A DNA stretch of 41,275 nt from Muribaculaceae bacterium Zag1. Lineage in GTDB: Bacteria; Bacteroidota; Bacteroidia; Bacteroidales; Muribaculaceae. Positions 12,236 through 36,385 of the stretch are shown in pieces; the first letter of the stretch is position 1, and each line of letters opens with the position of its first letter. The position numbers and the translations under genes were made by a program. Below the pieces are notes generated by a model that was not told the origin of the DNA, searched no databases, and saw nothing but the letters and a program-made list of their open reading frames with translations. The DNA lies in assembly GCA_002633115.1 (NCBI GenBank), contig NWBJ01000083.1:1-41275 (forward strand), given 5' to 3'.

Positions 12236-12302
12236 GGGCTCTGCCCCCGGTTCGTGTCCGTTATGGCGGCTACTGTGGCGCCCACTGTGTGGGCCGCGCC
12301 AT
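12236..12302 (+). repeat. REP element, copy 1
   Basis: Core CGGCTACTGTGG followed by a stem-loop CGCCCACTGTGTGGGCC, preceded by GTGTCCGTTATGG and a second hairpin with GGGGGCTCTGCCCCC. The copy at 16351 is its near-perfect reverse complement, so the two flank the HTCS gene in inverted orientation. Confidence 0.85.
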
Positions 12303-12320
12303 ATTCCCCCGCCAAAAAAA

Positions 12321-12352
12321 TTTGGATATGCCAGGGATTTGTCGTAAATTTG
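12321..12352 (+). promoter_or_regulatory. HTCS promoter
   Basis: TTTG at 12321-12324, 20 bp spacer, TAAATTTG at 12345-12352: a full match to the Bacteroidetes -33/-7 consensus. Transcription should begin about 22 nt before the HTCS start codon. Unlike the GH31 and susC promoters, it has a good -33 box, as expected for constitutive sensor expression. Confidence 0.75.
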
Positions 12353-12380
12353 TGGGCCAATCATTAAAAAATACCCTGCG

Positions 12381-15300
12381 ATGCGTAAATTTATCCTTTT
12401 TGCCCTATCCCTGATATTCATAGCTGTTGGCGCCGTCGAGCGCAAAGTGACAAAGCTGCCGCTCCCCAACGAGATTGTCACCAACAAGATCAATGCCATA
12501 CTGCGCACCACCGACGGTCTGATGTGGATCGGCACCGCCTCGGGCCTGAGCCGCTTTGACGGTTTTGGTTTCATCAACTACCAGGCCGTGCCCGGCGACA
12601 GCTCTACCCTGCAGTCAAATTACGTAGCCGCGCTCGCCGAGGACCCGCGCGGGCGCCTTTGGGTCAAGACAGATGTCGGTTTTAGCGTCTATGATTTCGC
12701 CTCCGAGCAGCTCAGCAACAATGCCGACGCGCTGCTCCGCGACATGGGCATCGATGGCCGCGTTGACCATATCATCGCCGACCCCGACCAAAACCTGTGG
12801 CTCTATGTCAGCGGCGGCGACAGCGCCCTGTATGTGCTGCGGCCCGATGATGATGAGGCCAAGAGGGTCGCCGAGGGCGATATTATGACCGAAGGGAATG
12901 TCTCGGGCCTGGCCGTTTGCGGCAAATATCTGGCTCTGGCCAACCGTATGGGGCGCCTTATACTCATCGACCGCCAGCGCGGCACCATCGCCGGAGTCAT
13001 CGATGACATCATGCCCGACATCGACCCCAGCAAAGAACCAGAAATCCAAATCTATGCCGACCGCGATGACCTGCTGTGGTTATGGACATCCCAAGACCTG
13101 TGGATTTACGACTTGCGCAACCGCAAGCTGGTTGACAGCCAAGAGGTGAAAAAACTCGCCAAAGGCATCATGCGCGTATTCCTGCAGGATGCCGATGGCA
13201 AGATGTGGATTGGACGCGACCACAAAGGATTGGTATTTCTTGAGAAAAACGCCTCGCGCGGGGCCATCACCAGCACCGACTGCTCGATGCCCGAACTCGA
13301 CAACCACACAGTGACCTGCCTCTACGAAGACCAAAACGGCACAGTATGGATTGGCACCTACAAACATGGCCTGTATTGCTACAGCCACGCTGCCAACAAA
13401 TTTGACCTTTCGCCCATGCCCGATGTCAATGTTATAGCCCCAGCCTCAGACACCGAGGCGTGGTTGGGCACCGATGGCGACGGCCTGTGGCTTTGGAACA
13501 GCGATACAAAGGCCCTGCGTCCCATCTCTGACCCCGCCGAGAGCAACGACTACAGCGCCATCACCGCACTGGCCCCCGATGGTCATGGCGGCGTATATGT
13601 TGGCACTTATGGCCGAGGCTTGAAGCATTACGCCAATGGACGATTCACAGGGGTCGATGCCGAGCATTTCGGCGATGCAAATATCTGGTCGATATTGCCT
13701 TATGCTGATGGCTCATTGTGGATTGGCACCCTCGGCCAGGGCCTGAAACGCTATGACCCCAAGAGCGGCAACACCCTGCTGTACACCGTTGCCCACTCTG
13801 GGCTGCCGAGCAATTTCATTGCCTCGCTCACCACTGACAAAGATGGCCGCATATATATGAGCACAGATAATGGCGTGGGCATACTCAACCCAACGACCGG
13901 GCGCGTGACCAATATCGATAGAGACCGACTATCAAGCCCTTACGTCAATCAGGTGCTATGCGACAGCCGTGGATACGTATGGGCGGCAACTCGCAACGGC
14001 CTAGACCTGTACCTGCCATCGGACGATTCGGTAAAGAATATCAATTTGTATCTGGCCTCGCCCCAACCCCATGTGCTCGGCCTGGCCGAGGACAAGGAGG
14101 GGCACATCTGGGTGTCGGTTGGCAGTCTGCTCTGCTGCCTCACTCCCATAGATGCTGAGAATCTGAATTATGGCATATACGTATTCAATAATTCTGATGG
14201 CTTGACCCTCAGCGATTTCAATCAGCGCTCGCTGGCCGTGCTGCCCAATGGGGTGCTGGCCGCTGGCGGCTTGTATGGCGTGTCGCATTGCCGTCCGTCG
14301 GAATTGGCTTTCAATACCGCCGCGCCGCATGTCAATTTCACCAATCTGTCGATCAATGGGCAGCGCGTTGCCCCGGGCGAGAAAGTCAACGGCCATGTGG
14401 CCATCGACAAGTCGATATTGCTCTCGCCCACGGTAAATCTCTATGACACAGATAATAATTTCACTGTCTATTTTGCATCCGACAATTATATAGTGCCAGA
14501 AAAGACACGATTTTACTATCAGCTATCAGGGTTTACTCCTGACTGGACGCCCTGCCCGGCTGGCAGCCACTATGTGACATTTGCAAATCTCGCCTCGGGC
14601 AAGTACAAACTGAGGGTCAAAGCCATCAATTCTGACGGCGTGGAGAGCGTGACGCCAGCCGAACTCGAAATCGTGGTGCATCCGCCTTTCTGGCTCTCTG
14701 TGTGGGCATATATATTATATGGTGTATTGCTGGGCACACTGCTGGCTGGCATATACATATATATAAGGCGCCGGGAGCAACAGCGATTCTTGGCCAAAAA
14801 GCAAGAAGAAGAGATTGAGAAGCAAGAACAGATCAATCAGATGAAGCTCCGCTTTTTCACCAACATAAGCCACGAGCTGCGTACACCGCTCACGCTGATC
14901 ATTTCGCCGCTTGAAAAGCTGATGAAGGAAATCCCTGACCCAGAGATACATAAAAAGCTTAGCGTCATGCACCGCAACTCTACCCAGCTGCTGTATCTGG
15001 TGAATCAGATACTTGATTTCCGCAAGAGCGAAATGTATGGCTTGCAGCTTGAGACTTCTATGGGCGATGTGGTGGCTTTTGCGGCAGCCGCGCTGCGCAA
15101 TTTCGAGCCTATGGCTGAGAGCCGTGGCATCGCCTTGTCGTTTGACACAAATGTCAAGGAGCTGAATATGCGATTTGACAAGGACAAACTGGGCAAAATC
15201 CTCACCAACCTGCTCTCTAACGCCATGAAATTTACCCCAAATGGCGGCAAGGTCAAGATGACGGTCAATGCCAACGGCGAGAGGGTAAGCATCAGCGTGG

Positions 15301-16346
15301 CTGACACGGGCATCGGCATCAGCGATGCCGACAAGCCGCACGTGTTTGAGCGTTTTTATCAGGCCGAGCGCAGCAATACTGGCTCGTATGCCGGCACGGG
15401 CATCGGCTTGAATATGGTGTGGGAATACGCCCGGTTGCATGGTGGCTCGGTGAGGGTCGAGGACAATCCCGAGGGTCAAGGTGCTGTGTTTGTGGTTGAT
15501 ATACCAATCCAGCAGGGAGCAGCTGAGCCGGCTGAGAATGCCGAGACATCAGAGAGCGCCGAGGGCACTCCCGCCACTGACCCAGCCGACAAGCGCCCAG
15601 TGGCACTGGTGGTAGATGACAACCCGGATATCGTGGACTTGCTGAGCGACAATCTCAAGGCTGATTTCCGCGTTGAGTCGGCCACCAACGGCAAGGAGGC
15701 CTGGATCAAAATCGTTGAGCAAAAGCCGGATATCATCATCTCGGATGTGATGATGCCTATCATGGACGGCATCGAGCTATGCCGCAAGGTCAAGAGCGAT
15801 GCCTCGACAGCCCAGATACCTATGATCCTGCTCACCGCCAAGCAGGATATGCAAGCGCGCATCGAGGGCCTGACCATCGGCGCCGATGACTATCTGACCA
15901 AGCCGTTTAATAATGAGGAGCTGTTGCTGCGCACCAAGCGCCTGGTGGCGCTGACACGAGGCGGAGCTCGCCGCCAGATACTCGACCCGCAGCCGTCAAA
16001 TATCAAGATTACGTCGCTTGATGAGAAATTGGTAGAAAAAGCTGTCAAATATGTCGAGGACAATATGGAGCGCAGCGAACTGTCGGTCGAAGAGCTGGCC
16101 CAGAATGTGGGCATGAGCCGCGTGCATCTATACAAAAAGCTGACGCAGATCACCGGCAAGACGCCGGTGGAATTTATACGCATCTTGCGCCTCAAGCGCG
16201 CCGCGCAGATGCTGCGCGAGTCGCAGCTCAATATCTCTGAGATTGCTTTTGCCACCGGCTTTGGCAGCCCCAAATATTTTTCTAAATATTTTAAGGAGGA
16301 ATTTGGGATATTGCCCAGCGCATACCAATCAACATACGGAAAATAA
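12381..16346 (+). CDS. hybrid two-component system regulator of the PUL (HTCS)
   Basis: 1321 codons with complete HTCS architecture. After a signal peptide, Reg_prop beta-propeller repeats run to about residue 640 (repeated MWIG, VWIGTYKHGLY, LWIGTLGQGLK). Then come a Y_Y_Y domain (about 690-765) and a transmembrane helix at about 770-797. The HisKA domain has phospho-acceptor His831 (NISHELRTPL), and the HATPase has NLLSNAMKF, DTGIGI and GTGIGLNMV. The receiver domain has phospho-acceptor Asp1122 (IIISDVMMPIMDG). An AraC-type DNA-binding domain forms the end (about 1215-1320; LSVEELAQNVGMSRVHLYKKL). The periplasmic sensor should bind an oligosaccharide from the PUL substrate and activate the GH31-GH2 and susC operons. 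It has its own consensus promoter and is flanked by inverted REP elements. Confidence 0.95.
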   Translation: MRKFILFALSLIFIAVGAVERKVTKLPLPNEIVTNKINAILRTTDGLMWIGTASGLSRFDGFGFINYQAVPGDSSTLQSNYVAALAEDPRGRLWVKTDVGFSVYDFASEQLSNNADALLRDMGIDGRVDHIIADPDQNLWLYVSGGDSALYVLRPDDDEAKRVAEGDIMTEGNVSGLAVCGKYLALANRMGRLILIDRQRGTIAGVIDDIMPDIDPSKEPEIQIYADRDDLLWLWTSQDLWIYDLRNRKLVDSQEVKKLAKGIMRVFLQDADGKMWIGRDHKGLVFLEKNASRGAITSTDCSMPELDNHTVTCLYEDQNGTVWIGTYKHGLYCYSHAANKFDLSPMPDVNVIAPASDTEAWLGTDGDGLWLWNSDTKALRPISDPAESNDYSAITALAPDGHGGVYVGTYGRGLKHYANGRFTGVDAEHFGDANIWSILPYADGSLWIGTLGQGLKRYDPKSGNTLLYTVAHSGLPSNFIASLTTDKDGRIYMSTDNGVGILNPTTGRVTNIDRDRLSSPYVNQVLCDSRGYVWAATRNGLDLYLPSDDSVKNINLYLASPQPHVLGLAEDKEGHIWVSVGSLLCCLTPIDAENLNYGIYVFNNSDGLTLSDFNQRSLAVLPNGVLAAGGLYGVSHCRPSELAFNTAAPHVNFTNLSINGQRVAPGEKVNGHVAIDKSILLSPTVNLYDTDNNFTVYFASDNYIVPEKTRFYYQLSGFTPDWTPCPAGSHYVTFANLASGKYKLRVKAINSDGVESVTPAELEIVVHPPFWLSVWAYILYGVLLGTLLAGIYIYIRRREQQRFLAKKQEEEIEKQEQINQMKLRFFTNISHELRTPLTLIISPLEKLMKEIPDPEIHKKLSVMHRNSTQLLYLVNQILDFRKSEMYGLQLETSMGDVVAFAAAALRNFEPMAESRGIALSFDTNVKELNMRFDKDKLGKILTNLLSNAMKFTPNGGKVKMTVNANGERVSISVADTGIGISDADKPHVFERFYQAERSNTGSYAGTGIGLNMVWEYARLHGGSVRVEDNPEGQGAVFVVDIPIQQGAAEPAENAETSESAEGTPATDPADKRPVALVVDDNPDIVDLLSDNLKADFRVESATNGKEAWIKIVEQKPDIIISDVMMPIMDGIELCRKVKSDASTAQIPMILLTAKQDMQARIEGLTIGADDYLTKPFNNEELLLRTKRLVALTRGGARRQILDPQPSNIKITSLDEKLVEKAVKYVEDNMERSELSVEELAQNVGMSRVHLYKKLTQITGKTPVEFIRILRLKRAAQMLRESQLNISEIAFATGFGSPKYFSKYFKEEFGILPSAYQSTYGK

Positions 16347-16350
16347 TCAC

Positions 16351-16405
16351 CGCGGCCCACACAGTGGGCGCCACAGTAGCAGCCATAACGGACACGAGCC
16401 GGGGC
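16351..16405 (-). repeat. REP element, copy 2
   Basis: CGGCCCACACAGTGGGCGCC then ACAGTAGC and CATAACGGACACG. It is the reverse complement of copy 1 (12236-12302) with only a few mismatches over about 60 bp, and it starts 5 bp after the HTCS stop codon. Confidence 0.85.
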
Positions 16406-16466
16406 CACAGCCCCCAACGATTGGCATGGCTCGGCATCTGATGCCGGGGGCACAGCCCCGGCTGGT

Positions 16467-16512
16467 GTCCGTCATGGCGGCTACTGTGGTGGGCCACTGG
16501 GTGGCCCACACC
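16467..16512 (+). repeat. REP element, copy 3
   Basis: GTGTCCGTCATGGCGGCTAC, then TGTGGTGGGCCACTGGGTGGCC. It forms an inverted pair with copy 2 around GC hairpins (GGGGCCACAGCCCC), a BIME-like arrangement at the 3' end of the RAYT gene. Confidence 0.85.
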
Positions 16513-16562
16513 CATATTATCACTGGGTGGCCCACACCCATATTATCACTGGGTGGCCCACA
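16495..16562. repeat. 26-bp tandem repeat, about 2.6 copies
   Basis: CACTGGGTGGCCCACACCCA plus TATTAT repeats at 16495, 16521 and 16547 with an exact 26-bp period. It duplicates half of the REP stem (GTGGCCCAC) and so looks like slippage growth from REP copy 3 toward the RAYT stop codon. Confidence 0.85.
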
Positions 16563-16565
16563 GGG

Positions 16566-17513
16566 CTACAGTATCGCCGGGTGGCCGGCGATGGCCTCAG
16601 CCAGGCGATTGAGATCCTGGCACTCGCGGCGTGTGATGGGCGGCTTGCCATATTGGTATGCCCATGGGCTGATGAGCAGCAGCTTGCCGGCTGCGCAGCA
16701 GTCAAAATCGCGCCCTGGCGGCTTCCAGAGCGGCGGGAAGCCGCAATCGCATAGCTCTATCACCGGGTATCCCTGGTCTTTGGCCCAATTGATCACCTGG
16801 CGCTCGCGCTTTGATATCGCGGCACTGACCAGTGTGCCGCCAGCCTCGCAATGCTGGCGCCAATAGGCAAATTTGCGCTCAAAATCAGGCTCCTTGTCGT
16901 GGCTGCGCACAATCACCGCCTCACGGTCAGGGATATTGAGCAAGAAATAATTGCCATATATCTCACAATTCTTGTCGGCTATCTGATAGCCGTATTTGGT
17001 GGTAAATAGCTCGGGATTTTGACGCTTTAGCGCCAAGCGGCGAGGATTGTCGGCAATATACACCTTCCAGGCATCAAATTGGCCCTCGCGATGGATCCAT
17101 TTGTCATTATACCCCTCCTCAAATATTCCGGGATGCTCGGCCAGGCCATTGAGCTCGCGATAGGCGCGGTTGCAACCAATCTTAAAGCCCCTGACAACCG
17201 AGCCCAGAGAATCTTTTTCATCAGCAAATGGGTATTTGATTTTTATGAGGATATGGATATGGTCGGGCATAATCACATAGCGGCACACCTCGACATTGGG
17301 ATAATAATAGGTGATGCGCAACAGCTCGGCGCGGCGGATTCTCTGCCCCAAGGGGCTGAGCTCGGTATATGGGATGGGACCCATTTTTAATCTGCCAAAA
17401 AGCGGCAGGCGGGGCTCGGTGACAATCGTGATGAGATATGAGCCGGGGCGCCGATAATCGTGGCAAAATGCCCGCTTATTCATATTTGGCTGCTGGGGTG
17501 GCTGTGATGGCAT
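16566..17513 (-). CDS. REP-associated tyrosine transposase (RAYT, Y1/HUH) with extra C-terminal domain
   Basis: 315 codons from the first ATG; the ATG at 17483 (MNKRAFCHDYRRPGSYLITI) is an equally good start. The N-terminal ~165 residues are a Y1 transposase domain: HUH motif His85-Ile-His87 in YVIMPDHIHILI, and candidate catalytic Tyr152 in WKVYIADNPRR. These single-copy IS200-related enzymes act on REP hairpins and are not flanked by their own transposon ends. Residues about 215-315 are an added domain (GGTLVSAAISKRERQVINWA, DFDCCAAGKLLLISPW) that reminds me of SMF/DprA-like Rossmann folds; that fold call is tentative. REP pairs lie on both sides (16351-16512 and 17607-17718), the expected RAYT setting. 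It splits the HTCS from susC. Confidence 0.85.
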   Translation of the reverse strand: MPSQPPQQPNMNKRAFCHDYRRPGSYLITIVTEPRLPLFGRLKMGPIPYTELSPLGQRIRRAELLRITYYYPNVEVCRYVIMPDHIHILIKIKYPFADEKDSLGSVVRGFKIGCNRAYRELNGLAEHPGIFEEGYNDKWIHREGQFDAWKVYIADNPRRLALKRQNPELFTTKYGYQIADKNCEIYGNYFLLNIPDREAVIVRSHDKEPDFERKFAYWRQHCEAGGTLVSAAISKRERQVINWAKDQGYPVIELCDCGFPPLWKPPGRDFDCCAAGKLLLISPWAYQYGKPPITRRECQDLNRLAEAIAGHPAIL

Positions 17514-17606
17514 AGGGATATGGCATTAGAGTGATTGATGCCACAAAGATAGGGATAATATTTGACACCCCCAATAATATCTGGCCATTTTTGAAAAAAT
17601 GGCATC

Positions 17607-17645
17607 ACGCCCACGCAGTGGGCGCCACAGTGGCCGCCATAACGG
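17607..17645 (-). repeat. REP element, copy 4
   Basis: GCCCACGCAGTGGGCGCC, ACAGTGGCCGCCATAACGG. It pairs in inverted orientation with copy 5 across the hairpin GGGGGCACAGCCCCC, giving a BIME-like unit upstream of the RAYT gene. Confidence 0.85.
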
Positions 17646-17676
17646 CAGGAGCCGGGGGCACAGCCCCCAGGTGGGG

Positions 17677-17718
17677 CCGTTATGGCGGCTACTGTGGTGG
17701 GCCACTGGGTGGCCCACA
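17677..17718 (+). repeat. REP element, copy 5
   Basis: CCGTTATGGCGGCTACTGTG, then GTGGGCCACTGGGTGGCCCA, almost identical to copy 3 on the other side of the RAYT. Confidence 0.85.
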
Positions 17719-17775
17719 TATAGGGCATGAGATGGGGATAAATGGGGGGTGTGCACAAAATGGGGGGTAAAAAGA

Positions 17776-17802
17776 AACATTTTGGGCATATCGAAATACA
17801 AT
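17776..17802 (+). promoter_or_regulatory. candidate HTCS operator upstream of susC
   Basis: AACATTTTGGGCATATCGAA followed by ATACAAT aligns with the minus-strand segment 12116-12091 upstream of GH31, at nearly the same distance from the -7 box (76 against 73 bp). CGGTGGG (17806-17812) is also shared. An HTCS target is the natural reading but is inferred. Confidence 0.5.
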
Positions 17803-17853
17803 AGGCGGTGGGTCTCCTATCTTTTAAAATACCCTATAAATCTAAATAAATCC

Positions 17854-17861
17854 TAATTTTG
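17854..17861 (+). promoter_or_regulatory. -7 box of the susC operon promoter
   Basis: TAATTTTG without a consensus -33 box. The following CATTGT matches the GH31 promoter base for base. Transcription would start near 17868, leaving a leader of about 187 nt before the susC ATG. I see no clear gene or riboswitch in that leader. Confidence 0.6.
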
Positions 17862-18054
17862 CATTGTCAATTTGGACTGGTCGAGAGCGGCCAGCGGGCC
17901 ATAAGGGCATAAAGCCACAATGGGCAGCCAGCAGGTGCCAGATTGATACAAGGGCTATAGGCCATGAAGAGCAGCGAGGGCGCTGAGGCGCCCGGGACCA
18001 CAATGGAAACAACGAAAACAAACAATTACATGTCAAACTAATCATTCATTATCC

Positions 18055-21000
18055 ATGGTACAAAACCTGAAAAACAGAAACCGCGCCACACTGTGGCTGC
18101 GCAGTGCCATGATGACATTGGCTCTGGCCCTGGGCATCGCAGCCCAGGCCGAGCCCATTGTTGTCACCGGTACTGTCACCGCCGCGGTTGATGACGAACC
18201 CCTAATCGGGGCCGCGGTGCAAGTCAAGGAAACCGGTGCCGGCGTCACCACCGACATCGACGGCAATTACCGCATCAGCGCCGAGATGGGCCAGACCCTG
18301 ACGGTTAGCTACGTAGGCTGCGTAAGCCAAGAAGCGAAAATCACCTCCGACCACATCGACTTCGTGCTCGAGGACAACGCCGCCAAGCTCGAAGAAGTAG
18401 TAGTAGTCGGCTATGGCGTGCAGAAAAAGAAACTCGTGACTGGCGCCACCGCCCAGATGAAAGGCGATGACATCAGCAAACTCAACACCACCAGCCCCCT
18501 CCAGGCCATGCAGGGCCAGATGCCGGGCGTACAGATCTCATCAACCTCGGGCCAACCGGGCGAGAGCATGAAGGTGACCATCCGCGGCCTTGGCACCGTG
18601 GGCAATTCGGGGCCTCTGTATCTGATCGACGGCGTGGGCGGTGACATCTCAACCCTCAACCCCGCCGACATCGAGAGCATCGACGTGCTCAAGGATGCCG
18701 CCTCGGCAGCCATCTACGGAGCCCAAGCCGCCAACGGCGTGGTGCTCATCACCACCAAGCAGGGCAAAGAAGGCAAAGCCAAGGTGACATTTGACGGTTA
18801 CTATGGCTGGCAGAGCGCTGCCCGCAAGACCAAGATGCTCAATGCCCAACAATACATGGCCATCATGGACGAGCAAGCCGTCAACGAGGGCAACGCCCCA
18901 TACGACTGGGCCAACATGACCAGCATCTACGATGCCAACGGCAACCTAATCGACACCGACTGGGTAAGCTCAATGTTTAACGACAACGCTCCGATGCAGA
19001 GCTACACCATCGGCGTAACCGGCGGTTCGGCCACCAGCACCTATTCTATATCACTCGGCTACCTGAGCCAAGAGGGCATCGTGGGGGGCAAGGGCCATAG
19101 CGATTACAGCCGCTACAACTTCCGCGTCAATAGCGACCACCAGCTCTGGAACAATCTGCTCACCGTGGGCGAGCAAGTAAGCTTTGTCTACACCAAAAAG
19201 CAAGGCGTAAGCGTGGGCAACCAATACAGCAACACCCTGCGCGGAGCCTTCACCACCTCGCCTATCGCTCCCATCTATGATGCCGACGGCAACTACAACG
19301 CTACCGACGACAGCGACTGGTACGCCTACGACGGCAACCCCTACGCATCGATGATGCTGTCAAGCAACAACCGCACCAACGCTGCCACATTCTCAGGCAA
19401 CGCCTACGCACAGCTCGAGCCCTTCAAGAATTTCAAGATCCGCACCGTGCTTGGCGTACTGTACCAGACCTCGGAATACCGTTCATACACCCCCATCTAC
19501 CACCTGTCGCCCTACAGCTATAGCGACCACACCTCGGCCTCGCAGAGCATGTGGCACGGCTTGGGCATCACCTGGACCAACACCGCCAGCTATGACTTTG
19601 AGCTCGGCGACCACGCATTCAACGTGCTGATCGGTATGGAGGCTTACCGCTACAAAGGCACCAGCCTGGCCGCATCTACCCGCGACCTGCGCGACGGCTT
19701 TGACACCTGGCAATACGCCTACATCAGCAACGGCACGGCCGCTACCACCACTGACGGCCTCTCGGCCAGCGGCGCTCCCGACGACGAAAGCCGCACCGTC
19801 TCCTACTTCGGCCGCTTGGGTTGGAACTGGAAAGAAAAATACATGATCAACTTTACGCTGCGCTCTGACGGTTCTTCGCGCTTTGCCAAGGGGCACCGCT
19901 TTGGCTACTTCCCATCAGTATCGGCTGGTTGGAATATCACCAACGAGGAATTTATGGAGAGCACCCGCTCATTCCTGAGTTACTTCAAGCTGCGCGCAAG
20001 CTGGGGCCGCGTAGGTAACCAGAATATCGACAACTACCAGTATCTGGCACCCATCACCACATCGGGCACTCACTATTTCTTTGGCGAATACATCGGCGCC
20101 GGCGGCACATACAATGACTTTGCCTCCATCCTCGCCAACAACTGGGGCGCATACCCAAGCCGTCTCGCCAACGAAGACGTAACCTGGGAGACCTCAGAAC
20201 AAACCAACATCGGTTTTGACGCTACCCTACTCCGCAGCCACCTCGGCGTCAACTTCGACTTCTATATCAAGAATACCAAGGACTGGCTGGTACAGGCTCC
20301 TATCCTCCAGACCACCGGTACCGGCGCTCCCTTCATCAACGGCGGCAACGTCAAGAATACCGGCGTTGAGCTCAACCTGACCTGGAACGACAACATCGGC
20401 CGCGACTTCAGCTACAGCCTCGGCGTAAACGGATCGTACAACCGCAACCGCGTGGGCGAAATCCCCACCGAAGACGGCATCATCCACGGCTCGACCAACC
20501 AGCTGTATGACAATACCCCTGAGTTCTACCGCGCCGAGAATGGCCACGCCATCGGTTATTTCTGGGGCTACAAGGTAGCTGGCGTGTTCCAGAGCGAACA
20601 AGACATCCAAGACTGGATTGCAGCCGGCAACGGCGTGTACCAGTCAAACCCGCAGCCCGGTGATGTGAAATTCTTCGACATCAACCATGACGGCGTGATT
20701 GACGAAAACGATAAGGTCGACCTTGGCAACGGCATGCCCAAATTCACCTTTGGCTTCAACGTCAACCTGTTCTACAAGGGCTTTGACCTGGGCGTGACCG
20801 CCACCGGAGCCGCTGGCTTCAAGATTGCACAGAGCTATCGCGGCCACAACAACCAGACCAACAATTACACCACAGCCATCCTCAACCGCTGGACTGGCGA
20901 GGGCACAAGCAATTTCTACCCCCGCGTGACTGAGAACAACTACAACTACGGCGACTTCTCAGACCTCTACCTGCAGGACGGCGACTATCTGCGCATCAGC

Positions 21001-21219
21001 AACATCACCCTCGGATACGACTTTGCCAAGCTGATCAAACAGAACTGGTGCTCACAGGCAAGAGTGTATGTGCAAGTGCAGAATGCATTCACCTTTACCA
21101 AATATGACGGCATGGATCCCGAAATCGGCTACGGTACCGACAGCTGGGTATCGGGCATCGACCTCGGCTACTATCCCCGCCCAAGGACATATCTGGTGGG
21201 AGTCAACTTAGCTTTTTAA
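18055..21219 (+). CDS. susC: SusC-family TonB-dependent outer-membrane transporter
   Basis: 1054 codons. Signal peptide to about residue 32 (MMTLALALGIAAQAEP). A carboxypeptidase-regulatory-like beta domain covers about 36-110 (VTGTVTAAVDDEPLIGAAVQ). Then comes the SusC junction LEEVVVVGYGVQKKK and a plug domain to about 235 (VTIRGLGTVGNSGPLYLIDG, IESIDVLKDAASAAIYG). A 22-stranded barrel ends in the family C-terminus (YYPRPRTYLVGVNLAF). It imports oligosaccharides through the outer membrane using TonB-ExbBD energy, with the SusD lipoprotein as lid. First gene of the plus-strand PUL operon; the susD start lies 133 bp downstream. Confidence 0.96.
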   Translation: MVQNLKNRNRATLWLRSAMMTLALALGIAAQAEPIVVTGTVTAAVDDEPLIGAAVQVKETGAGVTTDIDGNYRISAEMGQTLTVSYVGCVSQEAKITSDHIDFVLEDNAAKLEEVVVVGYGVQKKKLVTGATAQMKGDDISKLNTTSPLQAMQGQMPGVQISSTSGQPGESMKVTIRGLGTVGNSGPLYLIDGVGGDISTLNPADIESIDVLKDAASAAIYGAQAANGVVLITTKQGKEGKAKVTFDGYYGWQSAARKTKMLNAQQYMAIMDEQAVNEGNAPYDWANMTSIYDANGNLIDTDWVSSMFNDNAPMQSYTIGVTGGSATSTYSISLGYLSQEGIVGGKGHSDYSRYNFRVNSDHQLWNNLLTVGEQVSFVYTKKQGVSVGNQYSNTLRGAFTTSPIAPIYDADGNYNATDDSDWYAYDGNPYASMMLSSNNRTNAATFSGNAYAQLEPFKNFKIRTVLGVLYQTSEYRSYTPIYHLSPYSYSDHTSASQSMWHGLGITWTNTASYDFELGDHAFNVLIGMEAYRYKGTSLAASTRDLRDGFDTWQYAYISNGTAATTTDGLSASGAPDDESRTVSYFGRLGWNWKEKYMINFTLRSDGSSRFAKGHRFGYFPSVSAGWNITNEEFMESTRSFLSYFKLRASWGRVGNQNIDNYQYLAPITTSGTHYFFGEYIGAGGTYNDFASILANNWGAYPSRLANEDVTWETSEQTNIGFDATLLRSHLGVNFDFYIKNTKDWLVQAPILQTTGTGAPFINGGNVKNTGVELNLTWNDNIGRDFSYSLGVNGSYNRNRVGEIPTEDGIIHGSTNQLYDNTPEFYRAENGHAIGYFWGYKVAGVFQSEQDIQDWIAAGNGVYQSNPQPGDVKFFDINHDGVIDENDKVDLGNGMPKFTFGFNVNLFYKGFDLGVTATGAAGFKIAQSYRGHNNQTNNYTTAILNRWTGEGTSNFYPRVTENNYNYGDFSDLYLQDGDYLRISNITLGYDFAKLIKQNWCSQARVYVQVQNAFTFTKYDGMDPEIGYGTDSWVSGIDLGYYPRPRTYLVGVNLAF

Positions 21220-21221
21220 GC

Positions 21222-21340
21222 AATCGAGAATTCTCGACCCCGAGAAAGATTGACAAGAATCGACAGGAATCGACAATATCGACAGGAATCGATATAGTGG
21301 AGGAAATCGAGAAAATCGAAAGAATCGAAATTAATCGAAA
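21222..21340. repeat. TCGA-phrase repeats between susC and susD
   Basis: The gap is built from repeats of GACAGGAATCGACA-like and AAATCGA-like phrases and includes the palindrome TCGAGAATTCTCGA. It begins 3 bp after the susC stop codon. Confidence 0.75.
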
Positions 21341-21352
21341 ATTAAATCAGCA

Positions 21353-23008: not shown

Positions 23009-23026
23009 GAAAATGAAAAATGGCGC

Positions 23027-23060: not shown

Positions 23061-23076
23061 TAAATTTTAAGCTATC

Positions 23077-24984: not shown

Positions 24985-25023
24985 GCACCGCTTCCTATCC
25001 TCCCCTCCCCGCTATTCGACTCA

Positions 25024-25089
25024 TGTCGAAATTGTCGATTCCTGTCGAATCTTGTCGACAAGAATCGACAGGAATCGACAATTTCGACA
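25024..25089. repeat. 66-bp near-perfect palindrome (TCGACAGGAA phrase)
   Basis: GTCGAAATTGTCGATTCCTG runs through the centre CTTGTCGACAAG to its own complement ending CAATTTCGAC, with a single mismatched pair. Partial copies (GACAGGAATCG) continue to 25135. It begins about 40 bp after the preceding stop codon. Confidence 0.85.
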
Positions 25090-25201
25090 GGAATCGGATA
25101 TTCGACAGGAATCGACAAATTCGACAAGAATCGGATAGCGGGGAAAGCAAAGAGGCTATCTCTATAGATTTTCAATAAATCTCCTTTAAATCAGAATTCT
25201 G

Positions 25202-27769: not shown

Positions 27770-27773
27770 AACA

Positions 27774-27924
27774 AAACGTAAGCACGTAAGCTTTACGTAA
27801 GCACAAAGTAGATGTAATCAAAAAAAATTATTGATTATCGTATAGTATGTAATTAACTGAATTTTAGAAATTTAATAATAATATACTCTAGGTGTGCTTA
27901 CGTAAAGCTTACGTGCTTACGTTT
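27774..27924. repeat. inverted-repeat element A (31-bp perfect arms)
   Basis: Arms 27774-27804 (AAACGTAAGCACGTAAGCTT...) and 27894-27924 are perfect reverse complements over 31 bp, enclosing an 89-bp AT-rich loop. It starts 5 bp after the stop of the preceding gene and ends 17 bp before the GH5 start. The arms match those of the element at 30645, but the loops differ. Confidence 0.92.
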
Positions 27925-27941
27925 AAATCCCAAAAACAGCT

Positions 27942-29675
27942 ATGAAATATCTCAATATACTTTTGATGTGGGCCTTTGTGGCTATGGGCCTCACCGCTTG
28001 CAGCGATGACGACATGTACGAGGCCCCCGGGCGCCCCATCGAATTCACCGTGGGCAGCACCGAGATGAGCTTTGTGCGCACCGGCGCCACTCGCTCGCTC
28101 TATGTCGAGGCTACCTCGACGCCCTCAGTATCCACTACCGACACCTGGATACACCTCACCACCCCCACCCTCAATGGCGAGAGCGACCGCATCTACGCCA
28201 TCTCGGTGACTGTTGACGAAAACAGCGGCTACAACGACCGTACTGGTTCGATCAGCGTAAGCCAAGGCTCAAACAACGCTACCGTCAAGGTGACCCAGAC
28301 CGCTGGCGAGGGCCTCATCATCGACATCACCTCAAAGAGCCTTGAGGCCGCTGGCGGCACATTCACCGTAAACGTGCAAGCCACTGCCGACTACACTGTG
28401 GAGATGCCATCGTGGATTACCCGCAGCGAGAGCCGCAGCCTCGACAGCTACACTGAGCAATTCACCGCTGCCTCCAACCGCAGTCTCGACCGCTCGGGCG
28501 AAATCGTATTCACCCTCTCGAGCGACAACACCATCACAGCCGTGATAGCCGTGGACCAGGCTGGCGTAGAGGCAACATCTGGCACCCTCGCCAAGGATGT
28601 GATCAAGCAAATCAATGCTGGCTGGAACCTGGGCAACACCCTCGAGGCTTGCAACAGCGCTGACCTGACCGGCAGCGAGACAATGTGGGGCAATCCTACT
28701 GTGTCACAAGCTTTTATCAATGCTGTCAAGGAGGCTGGATTCAATGCCATCCGCCTGCCGGCCGCTTGGCACTGCCACATGGCCGACATGAGTACCTACA
28801 CCATCGACCCGGCTTGGCTGGCTCGCGTGCAAGAAATCGTTGACTATTGCATCAACGCCGACATGATCGTGGTGCTCAACACCCACTGGGATGCCGGTTG
28901 GCTCGAACTCAACTGCACCTCGGCTCAGAAAGAAGAGGTAATCGCCGAAGAAAAAGCCATCTGGACACAGATCGCCAACCAGTTTATAGACTATGGCGAC
29001 AACCTGCTCTTCGCCGGCGCCAATGAGGTTCGCTCGCTGCGCAGCGGCTCAGAATGGTGGGGACAACCCAACGCTGACGAACAGGCAACCCTCGAAGAAT
29101 ACATGCAAGTATTTGTTGACGCAGTGCGCGCCACCGGCGGCAACAACCTGACCCGCAACCTGGTAGTGCAATGCTGGTGCTGCAACGGCTGGTACGGCCT
29201 CAATGGCTACAACATGCCCGAGGATGTCGAGGCCGGTCACCTGATTTTTGAGTATCATTTCTATGACCCGATGGCTATGACCCATGCCAGCGATGTGGCA
29301 AGCGCCACCACCACTTGGGGCTATCGCGCCGGTTACGTATCGGCCGACGATGGATACCAGGAGGACTTCATCGACGACTATTTCGCACGTTTCAAGAGCG
29401 AATTTGTCGATGCCGGATATCCCGTGATCATCGGCGAATACGGCACCAACTGCTGGAGCCTCGAGGATGAGACCATCATGGCATCGCAGGCCTACTACCT
29501 GGAATACATCAACAAGGTGGCCAAGAACAATGGCATCGCCACATTCTATTGGGACAATGCCACGGGCAATATCGGCAACTTCGGCCTCTTCTCGCGCGTC
29601 TCTAACAAGGTCAACAAGCAACACCTCGTCGACGGCATCATGCTCGGCGCCGCCGAGGGCACCTATCCCTATTAA
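27942..29675 (+). CDS. GH5 endo-beta-glucanase (probable xyloglucanase) with BACON domains, surface lipoprotein
   Basis: 577 codons. Lipoprotein signal MKYLNILLMWAFVAMGLTAC (Cys20) followed by SDDD, which fits surface export. Two BACON-like domains lie at about 28-120 and 122-205 (repeated VKVTQTAG and AVIAVDQAG ends). The GH5 barrel starts at INAGWNLGNTLEA, with ETMWGNP, NAIRLPAAWH and FEYHFYDPM. Acid/base Glu362 lies in FAGANEVRS and nucleophile Glu499 in VIIGEYG. The usual NEP is NEV here, which I believe occurs in some Bacteroidales GH5 clades. A BACON-GH5_4 endo-xyloglucanase is the keystone surface enzyme in the B. ovatus xyloglucan locus, and the GH31/GH2 neighbours agree. Mixed-linkage glucanase activity is the main alternative. 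Confidence 0.88.
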   Translation: MKYLNILLMWAFVAMGLTACSDDDMYEAPGRPIEFTVGSTEMSFVRTGATRSLYVEATSTPSVSTTDTWIHLTTPTLNGESDRIYAISVTVDENSGYNDRTGSISVSQGSNNATVKVTQTAGEGLIIDITSKSLEAAGGTFTVNVQATADYTVEMPSWITRSESRSLDSYTEQFTAASNRSLDRSGEIVFTLSSDNTITAVIAVDQAGVEATSGTLAKDVIKQINAGWNLGNTLEACNSADLTGSETMWGNPTVSQAFINAVKEAGFNAIRLPAAWHCHMADMSTYTIDPAWLARVQEIVDYCINADMIVVLNTHWDAGWLELNCTSAQKEEVIAEEKAIWTQIANQFIDYGDNLLFAGANEVRSLRSGSEWWGQPNADEQATLEEYMQVFVDAVRATGGNNLTRNLVVQCWCCNGWYGLNGYNMPEDVEAGHLIFEYHFYDPMAMTHASDVASATTTWGYRAGYVSADDGYQEDFIDDYFARFKSEFVDAGYPVIIGEYGTNCWSLEDETIMASQAYYLEYINKVAKNNGIATFYWDNATGNIGNFGLFSRVSNKVNKQHLVDGIMLGAAEGTYPY

Positions 29676-29698
29676 GAGACCATAAGGACATAGAGACC

Positions 29699-29744
29699 AT
29701 AAGGACACAAGAAACATAAGGACATAAGTTTCTTGTGTCCTTAT
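29699..29744 (+). terminator. hairpin after the PUL operon (ATAAGGACA phrase)
   Basis: A perfect 17-bp stem, ATAAGGACACAAGAAAC (29699-29715), pairs with 29728-29744 around a 12-nt loop, then TATTATTTATG. Further ATAAGGACAT phrases on both sides (29688-29795) add outer pairing, ending in TTTTTTATCC. It is a plausible terminator for the susC-GH5 operon. Confidence 0.55.
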
Positions 29745-29807
29745 TATTTATGTCCTTACGCCTCTTATGTCCTTACGGTCTTTTTTATCCTTATGGTCAA
29801 AAAATTA

Positions 29808-29839
29808 TTTGGTGGATTCAAAAAAAATTCGTACCTTTG
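29808..29839 (+). promoter_or_regulatory. rplU-rpmA promoter
   Basis: TTTG at 29808-29811, 20-bp spacer, TACCTTTG at 29832-29839: an exact match to the Bacteroidetes housekeeping consensus. The leader before rplU is about 90 nt. Confidence 0.8.
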
Positions 29840-29936
29840 TGGTCGATTTTCCGCAACGGGCTCAACTAAGCGCATCTGGGCCATCGCCCATCGAGGCCGC
29901 CCGCCGGGCTAACACATTTAAGTGCAACAATTTACA

Positions 29937-30254: not shown

Positions 30255-30274
30255 CCCTTTAAAATCCGTAGACA

Positions 30275-30544
30275 ATGGCACATAAAAAAGGCGTTGGTAG
30301 CTCTAAGAACGGCCGCGAGTCAGAAAGCAAACGACTCGGCGTGAAAGTATTCGGTGGACAGTTTGCCCAAGCAGGCAACATCATCAAGCGTCAGCGTGGC
30401 ACCCAGCACCACCCCGGCAAGAATGTCGGCATGGGCAAGGACCACACCATCTACGCTCTCGTTGACGGCACAGTGGTATTTACCATTGGCAAGGAAGGCC
30501 GCAAATACATCAACATAGAGCCTATCGCACAACCAGAAGCATAA
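30275..30544 (+). CDS. rpmA: 50S ribosomal protein bL27
   Basis: 89 codons. It begins [20 protein letters not shown], the mature-type bL27 start whose N-terminal tail reaches the peptidyl transferase centre, without the cleavable extension known in Firmicutes. The block [20 protein letters not shown] is the family signature. Co-transcribed with rplU. Confidence 0.98.
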
Positions 30545-30586
30545 CATGTCATTGCTGGTCATTAAGACCGCAAGGACATAAAAAAC

Positions 30587-30620
30587 ATAAGGACATGAGG
30601 CAAGCGTTTCATGTCCTTAT
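30587..30620 (+). terminator. hairpin after rpmA
   Basis: ATAAGGACATGA (30587-30598) pairs with TCATGTCCTTAT (30609-30620), followed by TTATTAAA. It uses the same ATAAGGACAT phrase as the hairpin after the GH5 gene. A likely transcription end for rplU-rpmA, although the tail is not a strict T run. Confidence 0.55.
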
Positions 30621-30644
30621 TTATTAAACGTAAGCACGTTTATT

Positions 30645-30750
30645 AAACGTAAGCACGTAAGCTTAACGTAAGCACACTGATGGATATAATTTTTATCTGA
30701 TATAAAATTTACCTTAGGTGTGCTTACGTTAAGCTTACGTGCTTACGTTT
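30645..30750. repeat. inverted-repeat element B (33-bp perfect arms)
   Basis: Arms 30645-30677 and 30718-30750 are perfect 33-bp complements (AAACGTAAGCACGTAAGCTT...) around a 40-bp loop. A 19-bp partial duplication (TATTAAACGTAAGCACG) precedes the left arm. The right arm overlaps the last codons and stop of argH. The arms match element A at 27774. Confidence 0.92.
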
Positions 30751-32038: not shown

Positions 32039-32088
32039 AATTAGTGAATAAGTAATAGTTAATAGTGAATAACGGAGCCCACAGAGGG

Positions 32089-32134
32089 CGTGTCTGGATA
32101 GCGGCTACTGTGGTGACCCACTCAGTGGGCCACA
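32089..32134 (+). repeat. REP element, copy 6
   Basis: CGTGTCTGGATAGCGGCTAC, TGTGGTGACCCACTCAGTGGG. It ends exactly at the stop codon of the M20 deacylase gene. The preceding 32040-32070 carries a simple GTGAATAAGTAATAG phrase repeat. Confidence 0.8.
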
Positions 32135-33178: not shown

Positions 33179-33199
33179 ATCAATGTAGATTAGGGATCA

Positions 33200-33317
33200 G
33201 GCCACACAGTGGCCAGCACAGTAGTCGCTATCCAGACACAAGCCAGCTGACGCTGGCCATCAGTTATATGTAGCTGCGTGTCCGGATAGCGGCTACTGTG
33301 GCGGCCACACAGTGGCC
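33200..33317. repeat. REP inverted pair, copies 7 and 8
   Basis: Copy 7 (33200-33240, minus): GGCCACACAGTGGCC, ACAGTAGTCGCTATCCAG. Copy 8 (33277-33317, plus): GTCCGGATAGCGGCTACTGT, then CGGCCACACAGTGGCCG. Between them lies a hairpin of its own, GCCAGCTGACGCTGGC. Copy 8 ends 1 bp before the argB stop codon. It is a BIME-like pair matching those beside the RAYT. Confidence 0.85.
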
Positions 33318-33318
33318 G

Positions 33319-34065
33319 CTATCTATCCATTATCTTTGTGGCGCCGATGCTGACAGATTTGACGCCGGCTGAGATGGCTCGGAAAGCGTTGTCGAGCTTG
33401 GGGATCATGCCGCCCGATATGGTGCCATCAGCCTTGAGCTCGGTATAGAGGGCCGGGGTGATTTCCTTGATGAGCGAGGCCGGGTCGGCAATGTCGCGCA
33501 TTACCCCCAGCTGCTCAAAGCTATAGCACAGCGCGACATCGGTGAGCTGGGCCAGAGCTGTGGCAACAGACTGGGCCACGCTGTCGGCATTGGTGTTGAG
33601 CAATTGGCCATTGCCATCATGGGTGATGGCGCAAAGCACCGGCACAATCCCGGCATCGGTGAGATGCTTGAGCATTGGCGCATTCACACTGTCGATATCG
33701 CCCACAAAGCCGTAATCGATGGGCTCGGCTGGGCGCTTGTGAGCCTTGATGGCGTTGGCATCTGCGCCGCAGAGGCCAATGGCATTGCAGCCAAGCGCCT
33801 GCAATTGAGCCACAATCTGCTTGTTGGCCAAGCCGGCATATACCATAGTGGCAATATCGAGGGTAGCCGCATCGGTGACGCGCCGCCCCTCGATCATCTT
33901 GGTCTCGATGCCGAGCCGCTTGCTGAGCGCCGTGGCGGCGCGACCGCCGCCATGCACCAACACCTTGCGGCCCGGCCGGGAGGCGAAATCCTCCAAAAAG
34001 GCCCGGAGCGCCTCCGGGTCGTCAATCACAGCCCCACCAATTTTATAAACTGTAATATATTCCAT
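33319..34065 (-). CDS. argB: N-acetyl/succinylglutamate kinase
   Basis: 248 codons from the ATG at 34065 (MEYITVYKIGGAVID); the longer frame from 34140 runs through repeat DNA and is not family-like. Amino-acid kinase fold: KIGGAV phosphate loop, VHGGGRAATALSKRLGI substrate loop, GRRVTDAATLD, and nucleotide-site block SGGMIPKLDNAFRAI near the end. It phosphorylates the gamma-carboxylate of N-acylglutamate. The acyl group is probably succinyl in this pathway, given the ArgF' residue 90. Confidence 0.94.
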   Translation of the reverse strand: MEYITVYKIGGAVIDDPEALRAFLEDFASRPGRKVLVHGGGRAATALSKRLGIETKMIEGRRVTDAATLDIATMVYAGLANKQIVAQLQALGCNAIGLCGADANAIKAHKRPAEPIDYGFVGDIDSVNAPMLKHLTDAGIVPVLCAITHDGNGQLLNTNADSVAQSVATALAQLTDVALCYSFEQLGVMRDIADPASLIKEITPALYTELKADGTISGGMIPKLDNAFRAISAGVKSVSIGATKIMDR

Positions 34066-34082
34066 ACAATATTGAGTAAGTA

Positions 34083-34221
34083 AAAACCACAGATTTTCAC
34101 TGATTTCCACAGATTCCTTAGCGAGAAAATAAGATTTCATTAAACGTCAAGGCACTTGGCAGATTCTCACAGATTTTGATTTGGCAAGAATCTGTGGAAA
34201 TCTGTGGAAATCTGTGGTTTT
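34083..34221. repeat. long inverted repeat (CACAGATT phrase) between argF' and argB
   Basis: Left arm 34083-34116 (AAAACCACAGATTTTCACTG...) and right arm 34188-34221 (...GGAAATCTGTGGTTTT) are complementary over 34 bp with two mismatches. The right arm runs into the argF' stop codon. It has the same phrase as the 206-bp palindrome at 2200 but is not the same element. Confidence 0.85.
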
Positions 34222-35173
34222 AGTTCTCCAGCATTCGCTGGATCACCACTTGGGCTGAAATTTCGCGGTTGGCAGCCTCGGGGATTACCAGGCTGTTGGG
34301 CGACTCAATCACCTCGTCGGTGACGATGAGATTGCGGCGCACTGGCAGACAGTGCATGAAATATCCATTGTCGGTGAGAGCCATCTTGTCGGCGGTAATC
34401 ATCCAGTCCATGTCGCGCGACAGGATCTTGCCATAGTTGGGGTCGGAATAAGCGCTCCAGTTTTTGGCGTAGACAAAGTCGGCGCCATCGAGGGCCAGAT
34501 TCTGATCATGGGTAATCAGAGCGGCACCCTTTGTAAATTTCTCATCGAGTTCATATCCCTCGGGGTGAGCGATTACCAGGTCGACATCGGCCGCTCCCAT
34601 CCATTGGGCAAACGAGTTGGGCACAGCCTGAGGCAGAGCGCGGCAATGTGGAGCCCAGGTGAGCACCACCTTGGGACGCTCCTTGCGCTTGTATTCCTCG
34701 ATAGTGATCAGGTCGGCAAACGCCTGGAGTGGGTGCACGGTGGCCGACTCCATGCTGAATACCGGTTTGCCCGAGTATTCGATGAATTGGCGTATGATTT
34801 TCTCGCTGTAGTCGTCCTCTTTGTTTTCAAATTTGGCGAACGAGCGCACGCCAATCACATCGCAATAGCTGGCCATCACGGGGATAGCCTCGAGCAGATG
34901 CTCGGCTTTGTCGCCGTCCATGACCACGCCGCGCTCGGTCTCGAGATTCCAAGCGCCCTGCTTGACATCGAGCACAATGACATTCATGCCAAGATTCATA
35001 GCCGCCTTTTGTGTACTGAGGCGGGTGCGCAGACTGGAATTAAAGAAAATCATCAGCAAGGTCTTGTTCTTACCCAGCTGCTGGTTGGCAAAGCGGTCGC
35101 GCTTTACCTCTTGCGCCTCAGCCAATGCCACGCTAAGGTCGCCTATATCATCAACATTGAGAAATGATTTCAT
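34220..35173 (-). CDS. argF': N-succinylornithine carbamoyltransferase (ArgF')
   Basis: 317 codons, collinear with the Bacteroides fragilis enzyme (MKxF...DIGDL start, then LMIFFNSSLRTRLSTQKAA carbamoyl-phosphate site, MHCLPVRRN, VIPEAANREISAQVV). It transfers carbamoyl from carbamoyl phosphate to N-acylornithine. The specificity residue known from mutagenesis is Pro90 in the B. fragilis succinyl enzyme and Glu92 in the Xanthomonas acetyl enzyme. Here the aligned residue is Ala90 (MDGDKAEHLLEA). Ala at this site gave succinylornithine specificity in the published Xanthomonas mutants, so a succinyl substrate is expected. Its start overlaps the argD stop by 4 bp. Confidence 0.95.
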   Translation of the reverse strand: MKSFLNVDDIGDLSVALAEAQEVKRDRFANQQLGKNKTLLMIFFNSSLRTRLSTQKAAMNLGMNVIVLDVKQGAWNLETERGVVMDGDKAEHLLEAIPVMASYCDVIGVRSFAKFENKEDDYSEKIIRQFIEYSGKPVFSMESATVHPLQAFADLITIEEYKRKERPKVVLTWAPHCRALPQAVPNSFAQWMGAADVDLVIAHPEGYELDEKFTKGAALITHDQNLALDGADFVYAKNWSAYSDPNYGKILSRDMDWMITADKMALTDNGYFMHCLPVRRNLIVTDEVIESPNSLVIPEAANREISAQVVIQRMLEN

Positions 35174-36294
35174 GCATTTAATTGTTTTTTGATTTTTTCA
35201 ATAGCCAAATCGGCTTGAGATAGCGATAAGCTGAGGGCTGGCAAGAGGCGGATTGTGCCAGCGCCGGCGGCGCCGGTAAAGATGTGGTCGTCAAAGAGCA
35301 GGCGCTTTCTAATCTCGGGGGCGCCGTCGATGTCAAAGCCGATCATCAGACCTCGGCCGCGCACACCCTTGATGCCGGGGATTTGCTTGAGCTCAGCGAG
35401 CAGAAGCTCGCCTACGCGGGCGGCGTTTTCAATCAGATGCTCTTGCTCAATCACATCAAGCACAGCGATGGCGGCTGCGCAGGCAAGCTGCGAACCGCCA
35501 AAGGTGGTACCGAGCATGCCTTTTTTTGCCTGAAACTCAGGCGATATCAATACCGCCCCCATCGGAAAACCATTGGCAATACCCTTGGCGCAAGTGATAA
35601 GGTCGGGACGGATGCCCGACTGTTGATGGGCGAAAAATTGGCCCGAGCGGCCATATCCGCTCTGTATCTCATCGAGGATAAGCGACACGCCGTATTTGCT
35701 GGTGAGCGAACGCAACGCGCGCAGGAAATCATCACCTGGCTCGTGTATGCCGCTCACACCCTGGATGCCCTCGATGATGACAGCTGCCACATCGCCCTTG
35801 GCCAATTCTTGTTCAACCGCATCGATGTCGCCGAGCGGACAAAAAATGACATTGGGCGTAGCGTTAAACGGCGACTGTATCGCCGGATTGTCAGTGATGG
35901 CGACAGCGCCGGATGTGCGGCCATGAAAAGCCTTGGAAAAAGCCACTACGCGAGGCTTGCCAGTATGGAAAGAGGCCAGCTTGAGGGCATTTTCGTTGGC
36001 CTCGGCCCCCGAGTTGCAGAAAAAGGCGTGGTAATCCTCATATCCCGAGGCCGCGCCGATGCGCAGAGCCAGCTGGCGCTGCAGCGAGTTTTGCACCGAG
36101 TTGGAGTAAAAGCCGATGCGCGCAGCCTGGTCGGCAATAGCCTTTACGTAATGGGGATGGGCATGGCCTATTGAAATCACGGCATGGCCGCCATAGAGGT
36201 CGAGATACTCGGTGCCATCGGCATCATACACATAGTTGCCGGAGCCCCGCACCGGCTCGATATCATATAATGAGTAGACGTCAAAGAGATCCAT
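35170..36294 (-). CDS. argD: N-acylornithine aminotransferase
   Basis: 374 codons. Class-III PLP aminotransferase: FCNSGAEANENALKLA, ILDEIQSGYGRSG, and PLP lysine Lys237 in ITCAKGIANGFPMGA, followed by TTFGGSQLACAAA. It converts N-acylglutamate semialdehyde to N-acylornithine with glutamate as donor. Start and stop overlap argF' by 4 bp (coupled translation). It lies 180 bp downstream of argC across a gap holding a REP element. Confidence 0.94.
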   Translation of the reverse strand: MDLFDVYSLYDIEPVRGSGNYVYDADGTEYLDLYGGHAVISIGHAHPHYVKAIADQAARIGFYSNSVQNSLQRQLALRIGAASGYEDYHAFFCNSGAEANENALKLASFHTGKPRVVAFSKAFHGRTSGAVAITDNPAIQSPFNATPNVIFCPLGDIDAVEQELAKGDVAAVIIEGIQGVSGIHEPGDDFLRALRSLTSKYGVSLILDEIQSGYGRSGQFFAHQQSGIRPDLITCAKGIANGFPMGAVLISPEFQAKKGMLGTTFGGSQLACAAAIAVLDVIEQEHLIENAARVGELLLAELKQIPGIKGVRGRGLMIGFDIDGAPEIRKRLLFDDHIFTGAAGAGTIRLLPALSLSLSQADLAIEKIKKQLNA

Positions 36295-36346
36295 ATCTTA
36301 TTGAGTAATAAGTAATGAGTAATAAGTAAAGGCCAACCGGAGGCTC

Positions 36347-36385
36347 GGGCCACAAACTGGCCCGCACAGTAGCCGCATTCCAGCC
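36347..36385 (-). repeat. REP element, copy 9
   Basis: GGGCCACAAACTGGCCC, then GCACAGTAGCCGCATTCCAG, in the argC-argD gap. The gap (36295-36474) also holds a GTAATAAGTAATGAG simple phrase repeat at 36303-36328 and GC-rich GCGCGAGCGCG / GGCGCCTTATC phrases; no gene is seen there. Confidence 0.75.

Follow-up and report, generated by a model that had tools for sequence, protein, structure and literature searches.

The question raised by this locus is whether a transposase-like gene and the short hairpin-bearing units around it form one system, in which the enzyme spread the units. The window, i.e., the whole stretch of DNA analysed, comprises positions 1 to 41,275 of the forward strand of contig NWBJ01000083.1 from Muribaculaceae bacterium Zag1 (GCA_002633115.1), and is contig 83 of the 137 that make up this 4.46 Mb genome (G000). 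The gene belongs to the RAYT family (REP-associated tyrosine transposases). In the region 12381-23008, its neighbours are a hybrid two-component regulator on one side and, on the other, a SusC/SusD pair with an ensuing family-5 glycoside hydrolase, which makes this a polysaccharide-utilisation-type locus. The window probably contains a REPtron from a RAYT lineage that appears to be undescribed, and in which a protein combining an HUH/Y1 domain with a DprA/ShosA-like one is accompanied by cognate REPs of a non-GTAG type. The identification of the gene as a RAYT and of the units as REPs is, in itself, well supported.

The unit is 43 nt long and consists, from 5' to 3', of an upstream part close to CCGGATGGCGG, the segment CTACTGTG, and a hairpin with a 9-bp stem and a 3-nt loop. 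Nine copies, which align in register, are present in the window (Table 1), at the places where a sequence-only reading of this DNA had put them. Searching for the core with at most one mismatch returned eight window matches, compared with a mean of 0.64 and a maximum of 3 in 100 dinucleotide shuffles; the ninth copy, 33195-33237 on the reverse strand, is further from the core and has a hairpin as in the other copies. Six of the nine units form three inverted pairs (16350/16468, 17604/17676, and 33195/33280), with the hairpins pointing outward in each, and two of these pairs flank the intact RAYT gene, one per side, as the same reading had described. For the unit at 33280, the DNA fold of minimum energy is another hairpin, of greater length. 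The DNA folds also show a small hairpin upstream (CCG/CGG), and since no compensatory change was seen in it by eye, it is not claimed as part of the unit. Other repeats are also found in the window: a separate intergenic family whose inverted arms, of the GTAAGCAC type, measure ~32 nt and are up to 100% complementary (27774-27924 and 30626-30750), intergenic direct and inverted repeats of the TCGACAGGAATCG type (21252-21356 and 25006-25144), ACCATAAGGACATAAG-type tandem and inverted repeats (29669-29784 and 30557-30599), and a AATCTGTGG-type inverted repeat with 34-nt arms that are 94% complementary (34083-34221).

Table 1. Features of the RAYT gene and of the REP-like units, in window coordinates
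Feature	Position	Strand	Remarks
REP-like unit 1	12257..12299	+	core/hairpin match and covariance model R1
REP-like unit 2	16350..16392	-	paired with unit 3, downstream of RAYT
REP-like unit 3	16468..16510	+	paired with unit 2; single-strand DNA fold z -3.54
Three 26-nt direct repeats	16495..16572	+	repeat unit 3 stem; third copy 73% identical
RAYT-family gene, 315 aa, Y1 HUH transposase and DprA-like domain	16566..17513	-	intact ORF
C-terminal DprA/ShosA-like Rossmann domain (predicted), residues 170-311	16581..17006	-
N-terminal HUH/Y1 domain, residues 9-160	17034..17489	-
Putative catalytic tyrosine, residue 152	17058..17060	-	invariant, 44/44
HUH motif, residues 84-87	17253..17264	-	D84, H85, H87 nearly invariant in 44 sequences
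REP-like unit 4	17604..17646	-	paired with unit 5, upstream of RAYT
REP-like unit 5	17676..17718	+	paired with unit 4
REP-like unit 6	32092..32134	+	single here; sister species has inverted pair at corresponding place
REP-like unit 7	33195..33237	-	paired with unit 8
REP-like unit 8	33280..33322	+	paired with unit 7
Unit-less place	35173..35209	.	sister species carries a unit at corresponding site
REP-like unit 9	36343..36385	-	core/hairpin match and covariance model R1

A covariance model built from the nine window units (R1) matched 44 places in the genome of origin with an E value of 8e-4 or lower, although, being trained on window units, it leans towards window-like matches. Nine of the matches lie in the window, compared with 0.4 expected if they were evenly spread (Poisson P(≥9) 7e-10). 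One further match, with an E value of 0.004, was kept for later steps, bringing the set to 45 units; the repeat is thus not confined to the window. The family stands out only once the hairpin is included in the search. Taken alone, the 9-mer GCTACTGTG shows no genome-wide enrichment (56 matches versus 52 for a reversed control), and a longer pattern with up to two mismatches was rejected, being rarer than its control (376 versus 473); such patterns are therefore no measure of the family. Across the units, conservation extends over a tag part of ~20 nt that precedes the hairpin.

The stem, in contrast, varies while its pairing is kept. It usually has 9 bp closed by a 3-nt loop, at least seven pairs are formed in 36 of the 45 units by our own rule, and the 5' arm takes 34 different forms. 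In a MAFFT alignment of the 45 units, eight of the nine pairs change on both sides and 89.6% of cells are paired; cells changed on both sides number 65, versus 17.6 after shuffling (none of 500 shuffles as high) and at most 23 in slid controls. Variation is greatest at the base of the stem, where the outermost pair can be CG, GC, or UA, and least in the middle. The covariation that had been proposed from the window therefore holds genome-wide, while it is weak in the nine window copies alone, where one of six core pairs changes on both sides and the four cells involved were reached by 4 of 500 shuffles.

Two existing profiles match the RAYT protein below their cut-offs. Its match to Pfam Y1_Tnp (E 9e-4, 19.8 bits) falls below the cut-off of 23, and its score of 38.5 bits against NCBIfam REP_Tyr_transpos misses the curated cut-off of 80; the latter profile is matched at E≤0.01 by 42 of 44 family members. 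The motifs are DHIH and YIADNP. In an AlphaFold2 model of all 315 residues (pLDDT 92.3), the N-terminal domain is predicted to adopt the IS608 fold, with an HUH motif and a single tyrosine in the Y1 arrangement, and residues 170-311 are predicted to form the Rossmann fold of DprA. The latter domain was absent from the sequence-only reading of the gene. Its fold is that of DprA and ShosA (PDB 4ljk, 3uqz, 3maj, and 8zva), here fused to an HUH transposase, while similarity at the sequence level is marginal: the best E value in a PDB sequence search was 0.0084, profile-profile comparison with Bacteroidales DprA gave a probability of 1-2%, and Bacteroidales DprA proteins were not outstanding in a local profile search. 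At another locus (L322:309-938, reverse strand), an ORF directly adjoining a RAYT matches the profile of the DprA-like tail with an E value of 0.0027, and is perhaps a fragment. Searches of mobile elements returned one partial relative on plasmids (29% identical over 47% of the protein), none in phages, and one partial relative among viral contigs matching two peptide patterns; PADLOC had no match for the protein.

The distribution of the family was followed in 49 genomes of the genus. At E≤0.001, R1 found 44 matches in the genome of origin and 59 in that of a sister species (G014), one weak match each in three genomes (G031, G041, and G042), and zero in the other 44. These two genomes measure 4.5 and 4.1 Mb, and the other 47 are listed at 1.8-2.9 Mb. 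Relatives of the window RAYT at E≤1e-10 occur in 20 of the 49 genomes, and a close orthologue (92% identical) only in the sister species, so that the close RAYT and the family in number coincide in the same 2 of 49 genomes, and the repeat is far commoner there than in relatives lacking this RAYT (at most one match). This co-occurrence counts as one phylogenetic event, because the two are sister species. Among 297 genomes of the bacterial family, a second model, R2, with 21 candidates per genome scored, gave at least 22 matches in each of the two genomes; in 48 others it matched weakly, once or twice, with scores not above 32.4 bits. At E≤1e-25, 109 of the 297 encode relatives of the protein, with up to seven per genome. 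The claim that this RAYT spread the family gains from the co-occurrence, from the flanking inverted pairs, and from the genome-wide extent and stem covariation of the family.

We next consider how recent the spread is, scoring a site as occupied when some unit lay within 60 bp of it. Both flanks could be placed in the G014 stretches for 36 of the 45 units of the window's genome, and 35 of these sites are occupied and one is empty; conversely, 44 of 59 G014 units had both flanks in the window's genome, with 41 sites occupied and three, at two loci and including an inverted pair, empty. Nine of the 45 and 15 of the 59 units had no testable counterpart. Empty sites are undercounted here, because stretches of G014 were included on the basis that they hold units, which leaves empties on other contigs invisible. 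At three loci, units are present in one species and absent from the other, and a fourth has a pair in one and a single copy in the other; none of them is a clean insertion, since the surrounding intergenic letters differ too. The high occupancy and the few differing loci imply that the family spread mostly before the species split, with slow turnover since, and the earlier description of the REPtron as active or recently active finds weak support in them. At one locus (L235 ~9530-9620 versus L203 ~8520-8620), the genes on both sides align between the sister species, but the intergenic DNA in between is different throughout, with a REP-like unit in one and CTCGAGAATT-type repeats in the other.

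The same data give weight to a different explanation, that the family is a relic of immobile units and the RAYT a domesticated host protein with another job, performed perhaps via its DprA-like domain. Besides the 35 of 36 shared sites, this agrees with the fact that the RAYT is a single syntenic gene under purifying selection (dN/dS of 0.18 between the window RAYT and its G014 orthologue), and that an HUH-less paralogue pair is also kept, with a dN/dS of 0.12. Against it, the HUH motif and tyrosine of the window RAYT are intact, some sites differ between the sister species, including the inverted pair found only in G014, and unit numbers around the RAYT differ between the two. We regard the relic explanation as a serious possibility, though not the one that we favour.

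The placement of the units, with ORFs called by a simple longest-ORF rule, bears on the alternative that they are intergenic hairpins kept by the host at the RNA level, as terminators or message-end structures, and stand beside the RAYT by chance. Such a role would suit their position: 38 of 45 lie outside called ORFs (one of these at a stretch edge) and seven overlap an ORF; codirectional genes flank 23, convergent genes 11, and divergent genes 3. The convergent share, 11 of 37 classed units, exceeds the 13% of random intergenic positions (P 0.006), and between one-way gene pairs, 18 of 23 units point with the genes (P 0.011). Against it stand the conserved upstream tag, the inverted pairs flanking the RAYT, the confinement of the family in number to 2 of 49 genus genomes, and the analogous units with other tags at other RAYTs, and we consider this explanation unlikely. 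Of the units, 11 of 45 in the window's genome and 24 of 58 in the sister species lie within 300 bp of another. Inverted pairs, a feature of REPINs or BIMEs, are among them: all inverted neighbours at this distance (5/5 and 9/9, some of them shared by descent) have their hairpins outward, and same-direction neighbours number one and six, respectively.

The genome of the window encodes four further relatives of the RAYT, which are 50, 50, 43, and 32% identical to it. Two of these paralogues, on contigs C66 and C50, have inverted flanking units of their own, with other stems, which are dispersed in the genome; with one pattern for each and the units beside the gene included, the C50 unit was found in 15 places versus 1 for the control, and the C66 unit in 10 versus 5, an excess of only twofold. 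The C7 paralogue, which lacks HUH, has no repeat within 500 bp of the gene by our own test; it (L145:2699-3751) and its G014 counterpart (L173:1384-2337) are possibly a domesticated form. The C38 paralogue, 50% identical to the window RAYT, is flanked by a unit whose upstream part is related and whose tag differs, and might itself have mobilised the window family. We find it quite improbable that this or another paralogue did so, since the units adjoining the window RAYT are the top-scoring family members by R1, the C38 unit is not among the R1 matches listed at E≤1, and the close orthologue in G014 stands among nine units within its own locus. That the units are the ends of an IS200/IS605-type insertion sequence moving whole is very unlikely despite the predicted IS608 fold of the N-terminal domain, as identity to the closest paralogue in the genome is only 50%, the gene is at the corresponding place in the sister species, and its near neighbours are the hybrid regulator and the SusC protein.

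Returning to the REPtron reading, we looked at the tag that such an enzyme would recognise. An exact CTACTGT is found in 38 of the 45 units, and CTAC[TC]GT is present in 43. GTAG, proposed earlier as the recognised tag, occurs in the units on the reverse strand only, 3' of the hairpin, and none of the 45 units has GT[AG]G at a distance of 0-2 nt on the 5' side of the 9-bp stem; it appears in 15 if positions up to 3 nt inside the stem are allowed. GTAG was therefore rejected as the tag, and other RAYTs of the family likewise carry other tags.

These tags were studied around 128 RAYT genes, 40 from earlier loci without near-copies or the HUH-less pair, and 88 new. Within 400 bp of the genes, 233 hairpins were found, in 92 loci, and three 5-mers were in clear excess 5' of them: GTATT (16 loci versus 2.5 expected from shuffles), CCGTG (14 versus 2.6), and CTGTG (15 versus 3.0). 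Also enriched were TATTG (17 versus 3.0) and CCCGT (13 versus 2.2), which overlap the former. The excess is clear in the 128-locus set only; in the earlier, weak test of 40 loci, CTGTG tied for top among 5-mers (5/40), and TGTG was observed 9 times versus 5.4 expected from shuffles, with other 4-mers ranked higher. Some single entries in the tag lists are probably chance hairpins. In a tree of 126 RAYT proteins, 40 of which have one of the three tags on hairpins flanking their gene and 86 none, the tag labels require 7 changes, versus 19.0 when shuffled (0/200 as low), a difference to which near-copies contribute; by our own test, a repeated tagged hairpin is present at 33 of the 126 loci. GT[AG]G stands next to some hairpin at 18 of 128 loci, and canonical-like tags thus exist in the lineage. 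Beside a RAYT gene from another genus (L271, 50% identical), the tag of the window units precedes a 9-bp stem of unrelated sequence, and at two further loci (L055 and L056) ACTGTG is followed by stems of 9 bp with loops of 3 nt. This suggests that the enzyme reads tag and shape rather than stem letters. Our reading of the data is that the RAYT-DprA lineage has its own non-GTAG REPs, whose tags follow the RAYT tree; with each RAYT lineage having its own tag and hairpin, enzyme and repeat would diversify together.

In the mechanism that we envisage, the HUH domain would bind the folded single strand by its tag and stem shape. It would then cut and rejoin the strand via Tyr152, by analogy with the rest of the family and with E. 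coli TnpA-REP, which does so with REP single strands in vitro (PMC8266576). The pairs, including the one present only in G014, suggest that what is copied or moved may be the outward-hairpin pair. The family would have spread mainly before the sister species separated, and would now turn over slowly. Proteins of the DprA superfamily bind single-stranded DNA and load RecA. The DprA-like domain could, speculatively, hold or hand on the single-stranded intermediate. More tentatively still, and with some doubt, the fusion may point to REP copying that is assisted by recombination rather than performed by a transposase alone, and the clade tags CTGTG, CCGTG, and GTATT to co-diversification across a family of gut Bacteroidales. 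With a DprA-like fold in the same polypeptide, a RAYT connects REP processing with a protein of the recombination type, and bears on how REPs spread and why their transposases persist as single genes. Work on specificity could also draw on matched enzyme-repeat sets, since a single bacterial family has many RAYT genes that differ in tag and hairpin.

We compared the system with those already known. In the open-access literature (print may differ), we found no paper linking RAYTs, REP-associated tyrosine transposases, or HUH transposases with DprA, and none since 2019 on REPINs and RAYTs in a Bacteroid context; neither "DprA" nor "Rossmann" occurs in the main text of PMC6006769. It is on this literature search and on the differences from the described subclasses that we regard the RAYT-DprA lineage as apparently new. 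According to PMC8266576, the E. coli REPtron has a GTAG tag and about six hundred REPs in strain K-12, whereas here the tag is CTAC[TC]GT, the units number 44-45, and the enzyme has an extra DprA-like domain. In the same source, GTAG is crucial in E. coli and its variation is tolerated in two other systems; a different tag alone therefore does not exclude a REP. TnpA-Y1 subclass 2.6, or RAYT group 5, as described in PMC6006769, is similar in its occurrence in Bacteroidetes, its atypical flanking structures without GT[AG]G, and copies of these elsewhere in the genome. Its NH[LIV]H and YIH[QN]NP motifs and median length of 179 aa, however, differ from the DHIH, YIADNP, and 315 aa of the window RAYT. 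Subclasses 2.1 and 2.3 share a long C-terminal extension after the HUH/Y1 core; as reported there, they lack REPs and the 2.1 tails are helix-turn-helix-like, whereas the window system has REPs and a tail with a predicted DprA fold. Finally, the GTAG and CGTC superfamilies of REPs, as described in PMC3733652, resemble the window family in having a hairpin, a tag at one end, and dimers; the tag is another one, and inverted neighbours of the window type, with the tags inside, correspond to their TT dimers.
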